Virus record (IMG/VR): IMGVR_UViG_3300013307_000020
Coordinates: 1-64,000 of that record
DNA from: a virus
Strand: one strand, 5' to 3'
DNA: 64,000 bases
Shown here: positions 4,905 to 63,128 of the stretch, in pieces
Position numbering within the stretch: position 1 is the stretch's first letter
How the letters are laid out: each line of letters begins with the position of its first letter
The notes under the pieces: model-generated
Seen by the model: the letters and a program-made list of their open reading frames with translations, nothing else
What the model was told of the DNA's origin: nothing
Databases searched by the model: none
Program-made: the position numbers and the translations under genes

Positions 4905-6005
4905 TCAGGCGATCAGCGTTCGCGCTTCATCGACGTTCGACGCGTCGCCAACATATTGAAAGACGGCATTTGGTCTGCCGCCGAAGCCGCCGACGCTGGA
5001 CGAGCTCCCGCGCGCCGGTGAAAAAGTGCCGGGTGCTTTCTGCAACGCCCACACTGGGCTCTTGTCGAATGCGCGAATGAGTGCGGGGTGTGCCGGATAT
5101 GTATGCAGACGGCGACCGATGGCGGCGTAGGCTGCGCCCAATCGATCAACGAGAGCGAACGCAAGACCCAAGCCCTGAAAATCTGGCAGCGTGACCAATC
5201 GAGAGACGCCGCTGATATCGCGAACGCGCGCGTGCGGACGATGAAGAATTCCCGCGAAGGCGGCGATACGATCACCGACGAAAAGCCCGAAGCAACGCGC
5301 GGCGGGATTCAGATCAGCCGTCAGATAGTGAAATGGAGCAAAGAGCCACCACGATGAATAAGTGACCCGAGCGATTGCGCAATCAATTGAGGGGCGTCGC
5401 TGATGCTCCCTCCAAGTGAACGACATATCGGCCGGTTGCAAAATCCAATCCGGCTGAAGCCAGTCGATCACGTCGTAATGACACGATGCCGCCACGAGTG
5501 TTTGATCATGACGGCGGACAAATTTTTGAACCGCGTGCGCGCCGATCTTCGCGACCTGACGATCCACGACCGACGTGAATTCATCAATCACGATCGGGCT
5601 CGGCGCTTCGAGAAGGCGCCGCGCCATGTCGACGCGAAACTTTTCCCCATTTGATAGGACGTCATATGGGCGCAGCCACGCCGGGATCGTGTTGAACCCG
5701 ACCGCCTGGCAGACTTCGGCGATCTCGGCAATCTTCAACGTCTTCGCGAAGTCATCGATGACGCTCGCATCGTCCCACGAGAAGCTCGCGGGCTTGCCGA
5801 ACTTCTCATGAAGAATGGTCGATTTGCCCGAGCCGGATGGGCCGACAATCAGACCGACATTCCATTTGCGATCTTCAATCGGCATCTCACCGGACCATTC
5901 GAGCTTTTGACGTTGCTGCGCGGGCACGTCGAACATCGATTCGATTTGCTGAGCACGCGCCGAGCGCGAGATCGGGGAGTCGATTACGATATTAACGGAC
6001 GACAC
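4905..6005 (-). CDS. ABC-type ATPase fused to a Mom-like GNAT domain (COG2401 type)
   Basis: A 366-residue fusion. Residues 45-190 form an ABC ATPase: Walker A GPSGSGKST at about 55-63, signature-like LSNGEKFR at about 117-124, Walker B SPIVIDEF at about 136-143 and a switch His in CHYD at about 175-178. Residues 205-325 resemble an acetyltransferase fold, with VSRLVTLPDFQGLGLA at about 267-282 in the acyl-CoA loop position. There are no membrane segments, so it is not a transporter. This matches COG2401. The GTG start at 6005 lies inside the end of the ParB-like gene, so the two are translationally linked. The GNAT part is like the Mu Mom/XF1762 group, which suggests a base-modification role; that is inference. 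Confidence 0.8.
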   Translation of the reverse strand: MSSVNIVIDSPISRSARAQQIESMFDVPAQQRQKLEWSGEMPIEDRKWNVGLIVGPSGSGKSTILHEKFGKPASFSWDDASVIDDFAKTLKIAEIAEVCQAVGFNTIPAWLRPYDVLSNGEKFRVDMARRLLEAPSPIVIDEFTSVVDRQVAKIGAHAVQKFVRRHDQTLVAASCHYDVIDWLQPDWILQPADMSFTWREHQRRPSIDCAIARVTYSSWWLFAPFHYLTADLNPAARCFGLFVGDRIAAFAGILHRPHARVRDISGVSRLVTLPDFQGLGLAFALVDRLGAAYAAIGRRLHTYPAHPALIRAFDKSPVWALQKAPGTFSPARGSSSSVGGFGGRPNAVFQYVGDASNVDEARTLIA

Positions 6006-6529
6006 GTTTCACCCTCTTTCTGCAAACGCTCGATGAGTTCGCCTTGATGTTGTTCATCACGACAGTCGACGATGACGCGATGAACCAGATCGGAGCTCAG
6101 TTGCGGTGCCGTTCGATCCGTCATCGAGCCAACGCCGAGCTTCGACAATTCTCGCGGCCTGAACGCGGTCAAGTCGGTGACGTTGCCGAGACTGGCAACG
6201 CGGGCGAGGGTCGCGCGCAAGACGGTTTGATTCCATCCCGCATCGAGCGCGATCCGATTGTCGGCAATCGCCCATGCTTCCCATTCTTCATCGCTGAGAT
6301 TAAGCGTGATCGTCGGCACCTTCGGGATCTTCAGTTGCGTCGCCGCGAGCCAACGGCCGTTGCCGGCGCCGATGACTTTGTTGGGTCTGATCGCGATGGG
6401 GTTATTGAAGCCGAAGCGTTCAATCAGTTTGCAAAGCGATTTGATTTGCTCGGGCGAATGCGTGCGCGCGTTGTTTGGATCCGGCGTGAGAGAATCCGTC
6501 GCCATCATGATGATCTTCAAATCGCTCAT
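5984..6529 (-). CDS. ParB-fold protein linked to the ABC-GNAT gene
   Basis: A 181-residue protein with an N-terminal ParB/Srx-type domain: DPNNARTHSPEQI at about 18-30 and GAGNGRW at about 54-60, in the place of the GERR motif of segregation ParBs. The ATG at 6529 is preferred because it overlaps the upstream stop as ATGA; a GTG at 6538 is the alternative. ParB domains of this short DNA-methylase-associated type often travel with DNA-modifying enzymes. The coupling to the ABC-GNAT gene suggests that the two act together. Confidence 0.8.
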   Translation of the reverse strand: MSDLKIIMMATDSLTPDPNNARTHSPEQIKSLCKLIERFGFNNPIAIRPNKVIGAGNGRWLAATQLKIPKVPTITLNLSDEEWEAWAIADNRIALDAGWNQTVLRATLARVASLGNVTDLTAFRPRELSKLGVGSMTDRTAPQLSSDLVHRVIVDCRDEQHQGELIERLQKEGETCRPLIS

Positions 6530-6801
6530 AATGAACACCTCGCGCTTACTTCGCCGCGGACTGTGATCACCCCTTCCGCGAGTCTTTTTTTAATCCATTC
6601 GCGCATCACGGTGGAGACGGCAAAATCGACAAACGTCGAGCCATCGAATGAAATCTCTATTTTCGGATGATAGGCGATTGGATCGCCCGCAATGGCATCG
6701 GCAAATTTGTTATCTCTGATCGCGCGATCATAGGCGGGCCAATCAAATTCGCCGCTCTCGCCCGATGCTTTCAGTTCGAGGATGGCCTCCGCGATGTTCA
6801 T
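6526..6801 (-). CDS. Small unknown protein
   Basis: A 91-residue protein starting MNIAEAILELKASGE. The ATG at 6801 overlaps the stop of the DnaJ gene as ATGA, so the longer frame to 6825 is not used. It has a helical N-terminus, a central strand-rich part (KIEISFDGSTFVDF) and a helical end. It is coupled downstream to the ParB-fold gene. No family was recognised. Confidence 0.65.
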   Translation of the reverse strand: MNIAEAILELKASGESGEFDWPAYDRAIRDNKFADAIAGDPIAYHPKIEISFDGSTFVDFAVSTVMREWIKKRLAEGVITVRGEVSARCSL

Positions 6802-7433
6802 GTCATCGTCGCCGTGCTGTTCCAAACTATGCCGTAGCTGCGCACTTGCTCAATGTCGAATGAGTGACCGGCGACGAGCTCGTCGGCACTGATAAGAATC
6901 TCCGCAAGCGCGCGCTGTGATTTCAGATGCTCGACCATGCCGACGCATCGGGCTCGAACCACGTCGCCAAGAAAGTTTTCGCCCTTATCTCGATGGAAAC
7001 GGCTCTCCATCTCGCGCATCGAGGCAAGCGCGATCTCTGCGCCCGCGATCTCCTTGCCGAGCGCGTCGCGCTTCTGGCGAATGTACGCGCGCAAATGCTC
7101 GATCATGTTTTGCGCCTGCGGGCGAGTGCCTTTGGAAAGCATTTTCACAAGAACGTTGTCGAGCGCCTCGACAATTTCCTTCACCATGATCTCGCGGCTC
7201 TTGTCCAACGTTTCGTCGACCTGGCCGGTCTCGTCGAAGATCGCCCTCTTCTTCGGGTCCATCAGGACGTCATGGGCGCGTTTCAGCGTTGCAAATGCCG
7301 TCGCGCTGCCGCCGGCGTCCGGGTGCGCCTTGCGCGACTTCGCGCGATAGGCAGAGCGAATGGCGGCGGGCGCTGCGTCGCGCTCGATCCCCAAGACCCC
7401 ATAAAGATCGTCCCTGCTCAGCGCGTCCACCAC
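6798..7433 (-). CDS. DnaJ-domain protein
   Basis: A 211-residue protein. The first 70 residues are a J domain with DLYGVLGI, helix II basic residues and the HPD motif at about 37-39, which stimulates the ATPase of DnaK. The rest is a helical, charged segment (about 75-190) with no zinc-finger or C-terminal DnaJ domain, so this is a type III J protein. Start is GTG at 7433 or the next GTG at 7430. It follows the replication genes in one coupled chain; recruitment of host DnaK to replication complexes is a reasonable inference. Confidence 0.85.
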   Translation of the reverse strand: MVDALSRDDLYGVLGIERDAAPAAIRSAYRAKSRKAHPDAGGSATAFATLKRAHDVLMDPKKRAIFDETGQVDETLDKSREIMVKEIVEALDNVLVKMLSKGTRPQAQNMIEHLRAYIRQKRDALGKEIAGAEIALASMREMESRFHRDKGENFLGDVVRARCVGMVEHLKSQRALAEILISADELVAGHSFDIEQVRSYGIVWNSTATMT

Positions 7434-10646: not shown

Positions 10647-11309
10647 TTAAGCACCCACTCCGTCGAGATGGGCGAGTAAAGGCGTGGAGTGATTTGCTTC
10701 CTGTGTGAAGTCCCTATCGATGGAAATTTTTTGCTTGCCTCGCGGCGAATCAGGTTCGAATAAACCGATCTGATCGCCGAAGCTCACCCAACCCGGCCGC
10801 GCTGTGCGCGCGAAGATATCGGCGCGATAGGTGAGACGCGGGCAATAGCGGTCGATCATCGAATAAAATTCTTCCGGCTTCTGCGAATGATGCCGCGCGA
10901 CGCCCTTGAAGATCGAGGGGAACGGCTTGTGCTGCGGATTGCCGAGCGTGCCAATAAGAATTGGCTCATGCATCGTTCGAACGCGATAGCCCGTTCCCAT
11001 GTGCGCATTGTCCGCGCGCGTTCGCTTATGCCAGATGATCGCCGACTTGTAGACGAAGCCCCAATGCCGCATCGCGTCGTGCGCTTGCTCACGCATACAT
11101 TCGGTGGCCCACAGAAGAAGAAGACAATCGGGACCGGCGAGTTCGCCGATGCGGAAGTTTTTGATCTCGTTCAGTTGAAGCGTTTGATAGTGACGAAGCG
11201 CGCCCTTCTTCGTGCCCTTGCGGGACCAATTGTCGAACGCCCAGGGCGGATCCACCACGAGAAGATCGTGACGAAACATCGGGAGATCGCCGAATTGCCA
11301 CGTGCTCAT
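10647..11309 (-). CDS. MT-A70 family adenine methyltransferase
   Basis: A 220-residue methyltransferase. The catalytic DPPW motif is at about 20-23, and LLLLWATECMREQAHDAM and the GFVYKSAIIWHKR strands follow in the order typical of MT-A70 proteins of phages, which methylate N6 of adenine in DNA. A HHSQKPEEFY stretch near residue 140 is the usual target-loop region. The ATG overlaps the stop of the GcrA-like gene as ATGA. Its recognition site cannot be read from sequence. Confidence 0.9.
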   Translation of the reverse strand: MSTWQFGDLPMFRHDLLVVDPPWAFDNWSRKGTKKGALRHYQTLQLNEIKNFRIGELAGPDCLLLLWATECMREQAHDAMRHWGFVYKSAIIWHKRTRADNAHMGTGYRVRTMHEPILIGTLGNPQHKPFPSIFKGVARHHSQKPEEFYSMIDRYCPRLTYRADIFARTARPGWVSFGDQIGLFEPDSPRGKQKISIDRDFTQEANHSTPLLAHLDGVGA

Positions 11310-49507: not shown

Positions 49508-51220
49508 TCAGATGATGATGAGACCGCGTTCGTTGTAGGGACCGGATTCATCCGGTACGAGCGCAGCGCCGTAAGCCATGATCGCCGCGGTGAGGCCGTC
49601 GATGCGGCCATTCGATTTCTTCTTCGTCGGCATCAGATTCTTGTTGCGGTCTTCCTCGAAACGAATGTTCGAGGCCATCCACGCCAGAACCGGATTGCCG
49701 CCATGTTCGAGCTTGCGCGCCTGAACGAGATTCAAAAATTCCTTCGTCGGGTGCGAGTAGGACTTCATGCCCTGAATGAACTCTCGCACCGGCACGCCCT
49801 TGTCCTGCAATTCGAGTGCAAGCTTGGTCGCGTCCCACGTATCGTAAGGGCACGCCAGAATGTTGAACTTCTTCTGCCAGTCGAGGATCTCGCGCTTCAC
49901 TTCGTCCTGATCGACCACATCGCCGGCGGTCACGTCGATCCAGTGTTCGTCGATCCAGCGTTGATAGTGGATGCGATCTCGATCCTCGCGCTCCTCGACA
50001 TTCTCGGCCGGGCACCAAAAGCGCACCCAGAGCTTCCATCGTTCGCCGTCCTCGATGGGCGGGAACAGAAGCGCCGCGGCCGTCAGGTCGATCTTCGATG
50101 AAATGTCGAACGCCGCATAAGCGTCGCGCCCATGCATCTTGTCGGGATCAAACGATTCAATCGAATTCTCGCGCCAGCGATCCGCATCGATCCCGCCGAT
50201 GGTCGTCGACGTGCGCAGATTGCAGCGAAGCCGTTTGAAGTTCGCTTGCGCGGCCGGATTGCCTTTCGCCTTGGCGCACTTCTCCTTCAGATCATCGAGC
50301 TTGACCGAGACCCCGAGATTTGGATTCGCTTTGATCCAAGTCTCGGGGTCATCCCAACGATCACCGTCATCAAGCGTCGCGATATATACGAAATAGGAAT
50401 CGTTCTCCAGAACGCGCGTCACGATCTTCTCGGCGTAGGCGCGCTCGTCGGCGTACACCGTGCCGATGCGATCATCCCCCGCCGTGGTGATGATCCACAA
50501 AAGCGGCTGGCGCCGCGAACCCGTCGCCGTGTCGAGCACATCCAGAAGATCGCGCGAGGCGTGCTTGTGGAGCTCGTCCACGACAACCATGTGCGGATTC
50601 AAACCGTCGAGCGTATTGGCGTCCGATGACAGAGGCTCGAACTTCGAGCTTGTCGTTTCGACGCTGATCGCGTTCTTGCGCAGAAGCGCCCGCTTGCGCA
50701 GCGCCGGCGAGGAGCGAACCATGCGGCGCGATTCATCGAAGACGATGCGCGCCTGATCTTTCTTCGTCGCGGCCGAGTAGACTTCGGCGCCCGCCTCGTG
50801 ATCCGCGATCAAACCGTCCAGCGCGATCGCCGAGGCTTCGGTCGATTTGCCGTTCTTGCGGGCCACTTCGTTGTAAGCGATGCGAAAGCGGCGCGTGCCG
50901 TCGCTGCGCATCCAGCCATACACAGATCCGATGCGGAACTGTTGCCACAGCGTAGGCTCGAAACGCGTACCGGCGAATTCGCCCTTCGAGTGGCGCGTCA
51001 GCCCCATGAAATCGAGATGATACGCCGCGAGATCGGGACGAAAGATCAGTCCGCGCTCGTGACCGTGATCGAGATCATCCAGGTGTCGCGCACATGCCGC
51101 CTTGACGAGCTTGCCGGCGATGATCTCGCCCGAAACAACCGCCAGCGCATAGCGCGAAACCGGATCAGTTCGGTCGTAAGTCGGCGGGGTAAGAGGCAAG
51201 GACGGCATCGAGATTTTCAT
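49508..51220 (-). CDS. terL: Terminase large subunit
   Basis: A 570-residue packaging motor of the HK97/P27 group (YmfN type). Walker A-like VARKNGKST is at about 119-127 and Walker B MVVVDELH at about 211-218; the C-terminal nuclease half has YAAFDISSKIDLTAAALLF and ILACPYDTWDATKLALEL. The start is uncertain: an ATG at 51220 overlaps the small subunit, with another ATG four codons on. With the portal it drives DNA into the head. Confidence 0.93.
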   Translation of the reverse strand: MKISMPSLPLTPPTYDRTDPVSRYALAVVSGEIIAGKLVKAACARHLDDLDHGHERGLIFRPDLAAYHLDFMGLTRHSKGEFAGTRFEPTLWQQFRIGSVYGWMRSDGTRRFRIAYNEVARKNGKSTEASAIALDGLIADHEAGAEVYSAATKKDQARIVFDESRRMVRSSPALRKRALLRKNAISVETTSSKFEPLSSDANTLDGLNPHMVVVDELHKHASRDLLDVLDTATGSRRQPLLWIITTAGDDRIGTVYADERAYAEKIVTRVLENDSYFVYIATLDDGDRWDDPETWIKANPNLGVSVKLDDLKEKCAKAKGNPAAQANFKRLRCNLRTSTTIGGIDADRWRENSIESFDPDKMHGRDAYAAFDISSKIDLTAAALLFPPIEDGERWKLWVRFWCPAENVEEREDRDRIHYQRWIDEHWIDVTAGDVVDQDEVKREILDWQKKFNILACPYDTWDATKLALELQDKGVPVREFIQGMKSYSHPTKEFLNLVQARKLEHGGNPVLAWMASNIRFEEDRNKNLMPTKKKSNGRIDGLTAAIMAYGAALVPDESGPYNERGLIII

Positions 51221-51758
51221 CCTCGTCGACCCGATTATGCGCGGGCTTCGGAGCAGGCAGGAACACATCGCCGCCCATTCCGGCGCTCAGACGCGGACGG
51301 CTGGCGGGCGTGAAGCCCAACTCCGCCGCGCATTTCGCGAGACGCAAGGTCGCCTTGTTGATGATCGACACATAGGGCGATTGAACGATGTTGCCGCCAT
51401 ACTCCAGCACAGATCCATCGCGCTTCGTCTCGCGCTTCTGACCCGTGACCGTGAGAAGCGGCAGGGAGTTTTCGGCATCGGCCTTCGCCTGGGCGATGGT
51501 CGCGGTGCGCATGTGATCGAACGCGATGACATAACCGGCGAGAATGCCGAGATCGATCGAACCGAGCACGCCGACCGGCGCGTTCTCAATCGCATAGCGC
51601 CAGTGATCCTTTTGCGCCGCCGTCAGCCATTCGGGCGGCGCGTCAAGTTCGCCAGTCACCACCGGCTCATTCTCGCGCGTCTTCAAGCGCGTCGAATTCC
51701 CCGTGCCATGAAGCTCGTGCAACGCTGTGGGCTTCGGCTTTCGACCCCTTTGTGCCAA
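51165..51758 (-). CDS. terS: Terminase small subunit, P27 family
   Basis: A 197-residue protein starting with a TTG at 51758, eight bases after AGGG. It has MAQRGRKPKPTALHELHGTG and PEWLTAAQKDHWRYAIENAP, typical of P27-like small terminase proteins that recognise the packaging site. It is the first gene of the late operon and overlaps terL by 56 bases. Confidence 0.88.
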   Translation of the reverse strand: MAQRGRKPKPTALHELHGTGNSTRLKTRENEPVVTGELDAPPEWLTAAQKDHWRYAIENAPVGVLGSIDLGILAGYVIAFDHMRTATIAQAKADAENSLPLLTVTGQKRETKRDGSVLEYGGNIVQSPYVSIINKATLRLAKCAAELGFTPASRPRLSAGMGGDVFLPAPKPAHNRVDEDENLDAVLASYPADLRPN

Positions 51759-61776: not shown

Positions 61777-62265
61777 TCAGTCCCGCAATTCATAAATGTG
61801 CTCAGCCAATGAAATGCGCCGCCGAAAAAATGGCTCGCCGGGCACGGTGACGCGATCAGAGCTATTGAGGCGACGGATTCTTTTTTCTCGTGCTTCGCTC
61901 GCCGTGCCGGTCGTCTCAAGATCGGTCCAGCGGACCCAACGCTGCAATTGATCCTGCGTCGTTTCGGGGTCGCCATTTTCACCCAGAACGATTCCAGCAC
62001 CCATGAGCGGATGCTTGTCGTACATGACAAGATGCCAGAGTGGCAGACCGGCGATGATACCGCATGTCCATTTCGACATGACAAAAACAAAGTCGCCGGT
62101 CGGCAGGCGGCTGGATTGGCAGGGAGTCATCGAGATACAATTGTTTTCGAGCTCGATGATTTCGTTTACGTTTGGCCCCGGCACGCTCCAATGCGGCAAG
62201 CGAATGGGGCTGATCGCGCGATCTTCCGGCGTGATCAGAAAACCCGACACTCGATCCGTCTTCAT
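61777..62265 (-). CDS. Unknown protein
   Basis: A 162-residue protein coupled to the upstream ParB gene by ATGA. It has a mixed fold with SGFLITPEDRAISPIRLPHW near the start and a charged C-terminal half. No family is recognised. Confidence 0.6.
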   Translation of the reverse strand: MKTDRVSGFLITPEDRAISPIRLPHWSVPGPNVNEIIELENNCISMTPCQSSRLPTGDFVFVMSKWTCGIIAGLPLWHLVMYDKHPLMGAGIVLGENGDPETTQDQLQRWVRWTDLETTGTASEAREKRIRRLNSSDRVTVPGEPFFRRRISLAEHIYELRD

Positions 62266-63128
62266 CGTTTCCCCGCGCTCAGAATGAATTCACGTTGCGA
62301 CGCCACCACGCGCAATTCATTCTCCATTTGCAAAAGATGTTTTCTGATCAGGAGCAATTTGTCGGCCATTGTCGCGACGCGACCTGGTGCGACGCGCTGA
62401 GCGGCGACGCACTCGCCGTCCTTGAACCCGGCGACCGCGAGTTGCTTCACGGCTTCGATCTTCGATTCGAGCGCCGTCAGCTTCATCAAGTCCCGTTTTG
62501 ACGGTCGAGGCATTGCGTCGAATGCCTCAAGCTGCGCATGTGCAGACTTCATGGCGATGCCGATGTGGCGGGCTTGCTCGGTCGTCTTGATCTTGCCCGA
62601 CAGAATATCGTTCATGAGTTTGCGCTGATGCTCGCGCGGCGCCTGCGCAACCGCCCAAGCCTTGCTCACTTCGAGCTGGCCGGTCTCAACCAGCCCCGCG
62701 ATCTCCGGTCGAAGCTCCAGAAGATCGAGACGCGATTTCACTTTGTTCACAGATTTCAGACCGAGATCGTTGATGACTCGTTCCACGGTGAATCCTCCAT
62801 CGATGAGAGATTGAAAGGCCCGCGCTTCCTCCATCGGGTTCATGTCGCGACGTTGCAGATTTTCGACGATGCTCCGAAGTCTCATTTCGAGATCGGTCAT
62901 CGTCTGCACGTCGCATCGCACTTTTCGATTGAGAAGCTTGCACGCCCGCCAGCGACACTCGCCGGCGACGATTTGAAATCGCCGCCCCTTTTGTCGAACG
63001 ACGATGGCTTGAATTTGCCCGCGCTCGCGAATTGAGTCCGCAAGGGCGTCAATGTGGCCCTGCGGGAATCGCTTGCGCGGTTGATCGGGGTTTGGCTCGA
63101 TGAGTTTGTGATCGATCTCTCTGATCAT
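62262..63128 (-). CDS. ParB/Spo0J-type protein
   Basis: A 288-residue protein close in length to chromosomal ParB. GECRWRA at about 56-62 replaces the usual GERRWRA of the CTP-binding site, and ENLQRRDMNPMEEA at about 89-102 matches the second CTPase motif. A helix-turn-helix (FTVERVINDLGLKSVNKVKS) follows at about 113-132. It is the best candidate in this phage to bind parS-like DNA. Confidence 0.88.
   Translation of the reverse strand: MIREIDHKLIEPNPDQPRKRFPQGHIDALADSIRERGQIQAIVVRQKGRRFQIVAGECRWRACKLLNRKVRCDVQTMTDLEMRLRSIVENLQRRDMNPMEEARAFQSLIDGGFTVERVINDLGLKSVNKVKSRLDLLELRPEIAGLVETGQLEVSKAWAVAQAPREHQRKLMNDILSGKIKTTEQARHIGIAMKSAHAQLEAFDAMPRPSKRDLMKLTALESKIEAVKQLAVAGFKDGECVAAQRVAPGRVATMADKLLLIRKHLLQMENELRVVASQREFILSAGKR

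Follow-up and report, generated by a model that had tools for sequence, protein, structure and literature searches.

What might a virus achieve with a ParB-like gene that runs into a second gene in which an ABC ATPase is fused to a GNAT acyltransferase domain? The two genes lie in a 64,000-nucleotide stretch of viral DNA, here termed the window (positions 1 to 64,000 of IMG/VR record IMGVR_UViG_3300013307_000020). The whole viral contig has a length of 65.4 kb and carries its terminase, portal and capsid genes at 44.7-51.3 kb. The ParB/Srx-fold gene occupies 5984..6529 on the minus strand and specifies 181 amino acids between an ATG at 6529 and a stop at 5984. An upstream GTG at 6538 provides an alternative minus strand frame of 5984-6538, but the ATG, which is preceded by a GAGG box, is the likelier start. 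The ABC ATPase-GNAT fusion gene extends over 4905..6005 on the same strand (366 amino acids; GTG start at 6005 and stop at 4905). The 22-base overlap between the genes that had been noted in the initial annotation was confirmed at 5984..6005 (minus strand), and a ribosome-binding-like sequence, AGAGGG, can be read within the ParB gene at 6012..6017 (minus strand) ahead of the GTG codon. The overlap suggests that translation of the two genes may be coupled.

The fusion protein commences with a strand-helix segment and a compact ABC ATPase domain (5418..6005, minus strand) which possesses a Walker A motif (G55-T63; 5817-5843), an ABC signature (L117-E121; 5643-5657), Walker B and catalytic residues (D141-E142; 5580-5585) and a switch histidine (H176; 5478-5480), all encoded on the minus strand. 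The GNAT domain (5031..5393, minus strand) includes R269 and H306-P307 in addition to the H226-Y227 pair (5325-5330, minus strand) and the acyl-CoA loop LPDFQGLG (L273 to 280; 5166-5189, minus strand). Pfam profiles for ABC_tran (E 3e-6) and Acetyltransf_1 (PF00583, GNAT; E 7e-6) each matched the protein above cut-off, and residues 5-357 produced a full-length match with the unannotated phage family phrog_11143 (E 1.6e-97). The AlphaFold2 model of the fusion had a mean pLDDT of 90, and its structural neighbors were ABC ATPase domains, RimI-type GNATs and the ATPase-GNAT tRNA acetyltransferase 2zpa. A membrane segment was neither modeled nor matched in the fusion, and there was no permease match among the proteins scanned around the gene. 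The protein therefore has the nucleotide-binding motifs of ABC transporters, but is without a permease domain or an adjoining permease match, in agreement with its original description. Among the PADLOC defense models, only partial matches to ATPase motifs were evident with no full-length match.

The ParB-fold protein matched PF02195 (ParB_N; E 5e-7, above the Pfam cut-off) across 6257-6508 (minus strand), and has the sequence GNGR where partition ParBs have a GERR-type motif. Its ParB domain also matched the ParB part of the phage DNA methyltransferase family phrog_498 (E 2e-31) and of the PADLOC model MTase_II (E 1e-19). A Pfam scan did not detect HTH_ParB (PF17762) in the protein which consequently shares the ParB_N domain with the partition proteins ParB and Noc, but not their DNA-binding domain. 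As that helix-turn-helix region is what gives partition ParBs their DNA site, the original proposal that the ParB fold finds DNA is weakened. Two further ParB_N proteins are encoded by the window phage at 59681-61345 (554 amino acids) and 62262-63128, the latter of which carries the helix-turn-helix domain (PF17762) like a true partition ParB.

Homologs of the ABC-GNAT protein were present in 79 phage records in INPHARED, and additional relatives were taken from viral contigs and bacterial genomes. Upstream partners within 1.5 kb were counted for 173 independent ABC-GNAT clusters (80% identity) for which the available sequence reached 300 bases or more upstream, and the same partner was found in 155 of them. 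This recurrence, together with the homologs in 79 phage records, establishes that the two-gene arrangement is more than chance. The commonest overlaps among the partnered clusters were 22 bases (44 clusters) and 4 bases (28 clusters). Little or no variation was seen across 61 non-redundant relatives at the residues of the Walker A, signature, Walker B and switch histidine motifs, or at W219, F222, H226, Y227, R269 and the LPDxQGxG loop in the GNAT domain; the H226-Y227 pair was invariant in 136 GNAT sequences. Values of dN/dS between close relatives were mostly 0.03-0.3. The window locus is intact and typical of this family. In-frame inserts of 118-145 residues that are rich in S/T/G/D/N occur in the GNAT domains of three relatives (L070, L079, and L080) after the position of window residue 245.

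The module occurs in phages of Firmicutes, Actinobacteria, Proteobacteria, Bacteroidetes and Spirochaetes, and probably also in those of Planctomycetes. Genes for ABC-GNAT proteins with ParB are found in many Planctomycetota, Nonomuraea and Endozoicomonas genomes (L248-L327, genome contigs). Tagged neighbors, mostly phage structural or packaging genes, accompany 41 of 80 relatives from bacterial genomes; a host-chromosomal system is disfavored on this basis, and a prophage origin appears likelier, at least for part of these relatives. The recurrent neighbors of ABC-GNAT genes are ParB, terminase and acyl-chemistry genes. ASCH-like genes downstream of ABC-GNAT were not confirmed by Pfam.

What stays constant in the upstream partner is the last ~33 residues of the ParB gene product rather than the ParB fold. 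These residues form a mini-domain with the consensus YxVhVxCxxExxQxxhhxxLxxxGhxCrxhxS (5987..6088 in the window, minus strand). In 131 clusters the mini-domain forms the end of a ParB and in 20 it is a free open reading frame of about 41-60 codons, and free-standing versions of 41-60 amino acids were found in Mu-like phages. At one locus (L267), ParB, tail, ABC and GNAT are joined in a single polypeptide whose predicted fold is of low confidence (pLDDT 68, pTM 0.43) and from which no interface is claimed. Because the element conserved alongside ABC-GNAT is this C-terminal mini-domain, which also occurs apart from ParB, the ParB that bears it fits better as an adaptor or NTP-dependent regulator which would dock via this tail.

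The C-terminal half of the fusion had also been likened to the Mom-type acyltransferase fold. Mom of phage Mu (PF25680; structure 8bv8) is similarly a phage DNA modifier of the GNAT superfamily with an invariant His-Tyr pair at the matching place, and modifies the N6 position of adenine. By Pfam, the window fusion is an ordinary GNAT protein with no match to PF25680. Mom sequences gave no significant match to the GNAT HMM, and single-sequence and global profile comparisons of GNAT with Mom yielded nothing. Local hhalign comparison of profiles built from 136 GNAT and 49 Mom sequences produced an E value of 0.003 with an HH probability of only 10%. The score of 25.8 nevertheless exceeded the maximum of 21.8 in 200 column-shuffled controls, and the alignment superposed H226-Y227 with H58-Y59 of Mom. 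The Mom C-terminal motif GxxYxAxN is absent from the GNAT alignment which has the QGxG acyl-CoA loop instead; Mom, in turn, lacks both this loop and an ABC part. Membership of the Mom family is rejected on the basis of the missing PF25680 match and the low HH probability, and the resemblance proposed initially is retained only as a likely distant relationship within the first half of the GNAT domain. The ABC-GNAT protein is predicted to work like Mom without belonging to its family.

Gene order also connects the two enzymes, which replace one another in related phages and may be encoded in the same operon. Mom-family genes near ParBs were located by searching with Mu Mom, itself a match to PF25680 at 2e-75; in Microbacterium and Arthrobacter phages, they immediately follow ParB genes. 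The Arthrobacter phages Sicarius2 and EastWest both derive from A. globiformis B-2979 and have the same gene order. The gene after ParB specifies Mom in Sicarius2 and ABC-GNAT in EastWest, whereas the preceding gene (67% identity), ParB (58%), a helix-turn-helix protein (71%) and a sliding clamp (53%) are shared. In Porphyromonas phage 015a, two tail genes are followed by Mom at the right end of the genome; in phage 006a, the same tail genes (75-95% identical) are followed by a free mini-domain, ABC-GNAT and a formyltransferase. The Mom gene of Enterococcus phage Ef5.2 is located after the DNA polymerase gene, and the ABC and GNAT genes of Enterococcus phage 9184 are inside the end of the DNA polymerase gene, so that these sites are near, but not identical. 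In phage 9184 (L129, 1962-5478), the C-terminal end of the GNAT open reading frame, which is annotated as DNA polymerase, encodes the last ~80 residues of the polymerase. Thus, in three phage groups the module is at or beside the Mom position of relatives, with orthologous flanks on both sides in one group. Moreover, a Mom-family gene and ABC-GNAT are in one operon with a 4-base overlap at L352 (2474-4272), and are close together at L354 (1094-4077).

A ParB gene was directly upstream of Mom at 11 of 114 Mom loci, many of which are near-identical Mu prophages. The mini-domain is missing from all 11 of these ParBs, six of which end in a CPxC tail instead, whereas a CxxC sequence near the end was absent from all 56 ABC-GNAT-linked ParBs. 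The tails therefore appear to be enzyme-specific, and ParB seems to be a common building block with exchangeable ends. The Mom gene of phage Mu is preceded by an overlapping zinc-ribbon gene, com. The CPxC tails of Mom-linked ParBs resemble Com by eye only and had no Pfam match to Zn_ribbon_Com.

Genes associated with acyl chemistry lie directly downstream of ABC-GNAT in a number of relatives. A Formyl_trans_N gene was present in this position in 21 independent clusters. Formyltransferase matches were detected in only 59 of 50,697 INPHARED records overall, but in 18 of the 79 ABC-GNAT records, at or just after ABC-GNAT; these 18, from Gordonia, Pseudomonas, Porphyromonas and fecal phages, include related records that are not independent. 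The linked formyltransferases (e.g., L228, 6259-6918) retain the active-site His and Asp. Known formyltransferases have Asn two residues before this His, whereas Gly, Ile or Val occupies the position in all linked proteins in which the motif was found. PanD with a Gly-Ser processing site is encoded downstream in seven clusters. A shortened CoA-transferase of family III follows in 13, and six clusters have both genes. Gordonia phage Jace, which also has PanD, was the only phage record with a CoA-transferase match; the other PanD matches among phage records were mostly on short, unannotated or host-like contigs. One locus (L071, 4429-8249) has the order ParB, ABC-GNAT, PanD, family-III CoA-transferase and a second ABC-GNAT, and the same run of genes occurs in L072-L076 and L132-L136. 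These formyltransferase, PanD and CoA-transferase neighbors suggest that the acyl groups may be varied, with beta-alanyl-CoA as a hypothetical donor in the lineages that have PanD and CoA-transferase.

Taken together, the pair is probably a single module that acylates bases of phage DNA in an ATP-gated manner. Base acylation is favored because Mom, a known modifier of DNA bases, replaces ABC-GNAT in related phages, overlaps it at L352 and is close to it at L354, and because ParB pairs with Mom and matches the ParB part of DNA methyltransferase families. The acyl-chemistry genes, the intact acyl-CoA loop and the invariant His-Tyr pair also speak for it. DpdB/DpdA provides a precedent for a ParB-like protein that serves a DNA base exchanger, and 2zpa one for an ATPase-assisted GNAT that acts on a base. 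The initial proposal that the ABC-coupled GNAT domain alters bases hence stands as the best reading with DNA as the predicted target. Nuclease protection would be the benefit to the phage, and the evasion of host restriction that was proposed initially is plausible. In the proposed mechanism, the GNAT domain would take an acyl group from acyl-CoA, presumably that of the host in the window phage, and pass it to the exocyclic amine of a base. Mom acts in this way at N6 of adenine, and TmcA at N4 of cytosine in tRNA. The ABC ATPase, probably as a dimer, would close on ATP and DNA so that ATP gates or powers the access of the duplex or a flipped base to the acyltransferase pocket. ParB, made by coupled translation, would dock through the C-terminal mini-domain and add an NTP-dependent step of targeting or regulation. 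Against base acylation are the position of the GNAT domain outside the Mom family by HMM and the lack of a formyltransferase or PanD match in the window phage record, and the sequence is compatible with RNA or protein targets.

A more extensive interpretation is possible, but doubtful. The ABC-GNATs may constitute a general ATP-gated platform that loads different acyl groups on DNA bases and is addressed by the mini-domain, either ParB-borne or as a free microprotein. Some lineages would make their own donor, with PanD converting aspartate to beta-alanine and the truncated family-III CoA-transferase forming the CoA ester, or would cap the product with the unusual formyltransferase. Undescribed bases such as beta-alanyl- or formylated aminoacyl-adenine or -cytosine might result.

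Within base acylation, the purpose may differ: acylation of DNA at a few sites might serve as a mark for packaging or self-recognition rather than as genome-wide protection. The terminase gene is directly downstream of the module in 54 independent clusters, as in Streptococcus, Lactococcus, Pasteurella and Leptospira phages, and a packaging role would fit this frequent position as well. However, the window module is in an early or replication block far from the terminase gene (49508-51268), and elsewhere the module is at genome ends or beside the polymerase, which leaves a positional mark as a rather unlikely purpose. Somewhat less probable still is a TmcA-like action on phage or host tRNA or mRNA that favors phage translation or dodges tRNA-cutting defenses. 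The retrieval of TmcA (2zpa), an ATPase and GNAT protein that acetylates tRNA cytidine, in the fold search is consistent with an RNA target, as are the tRNA genes located near the module in phages of Streptococcus, Pasteurella and Microbacterium. However, the only tRNA found in the window is >50 kb from the module, and the interchange and operon sharing with Mom, as well as the pairing of ParB with Mom and its methyltransferase-linked relatives, point to DNA. Acetylation of a protein, whether host RNA polymerase, a nucleoid component or a defense protein, with the clamp and sensor supplied by ABC and ParB and DNA as no more than a platform, is improbable: GNATs usually acetylate proteins or small molecules, RimI is among the nearest solved folds, and the modification of host RNA polymerase by phage GNATs has precedents (PMC7824862), but the swap with Mom and the PanD, CoA-transferase and formyltransferase neighbors would be left unexplained. 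That ABC and ParB form a structural or partition device with GNAT as a passenger is highly improbable, as the GNAT residues are as invariant as those of the ATPase and GNAT stays beside ABC even where the gene is split, as in Lactococcus P335, although Rhizobium phages have ABC without a detected GNAT beside ParBs.

Base acylation by ABC-GNAT proteins is an already published prediction that reportedly stems from the 2013 work of Iyer et al. TmcA, the tRNA(Met) cytidine acetyltransferase, likewise couples an ATPase module with GNAT and acylates the amine of a base, but its ATPase is helicase-type and its substrate is tRNA, whereas the ATPase of the window fusion is of the ABC type. The ParB-like ATPase DpdB works with the DNA base exchanger DpdA in deazaguanine insertion (PMC12839542); this system exchanges bases by transglycosylation without a GNAT or ABC ATPase, in contrast with the window module. 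An uncharacterized acyl modification of a DNA base was predicted for GNATs coupled with ABC ATPases in an earlier account that names phage pT24 (PMC7824862). The gene of this Tenacibaculum phage is a homolog of the window fusion (34% identity over 85% of the length), and the pT24 and phrog_11143 systems have the same domain pair with full-length homology. The passages on ABC-GNAT in PMC7824862 name no ParB tail domain, Mom replacement or acyl-supply genes, and these three observations may, at least in part, be new. No experimental report on DNA modification by ABC-GNAT and no report of a modified nucleoside in any carrier was found in the literature, nor were modification data found in that on LE3/LE4 or in that on MetaGPA. 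If the interpretation is correct, an ATP-driven acyltransferase would generate an unseen class of DNA bases by a chemistry without a characterized DNA counterpart, and many phage genes that are annotated as iron-siderophore or oligopeptide transporters would be explained. Sicarius2 and EastWest, with the same host strain, orthologous flanks and ParB, and Mom in one versus ABC-GNAT in the other, make the question directly testable.

The window phage also encodes an MT-A70 type adenine methyltransferase (10647-11309), so that methyladenine alone in its DNA would be uninformative on the acylation module. A DnaJ-domain protein is specified just upstream of the module at 6798-7433. A MoxR-kind AAA ATPase (phrog_1297) is encoded at 1507-2661 and is followed by a larger frame at 248-1540 which may be a candidate VWA-type partner of this ATPase.
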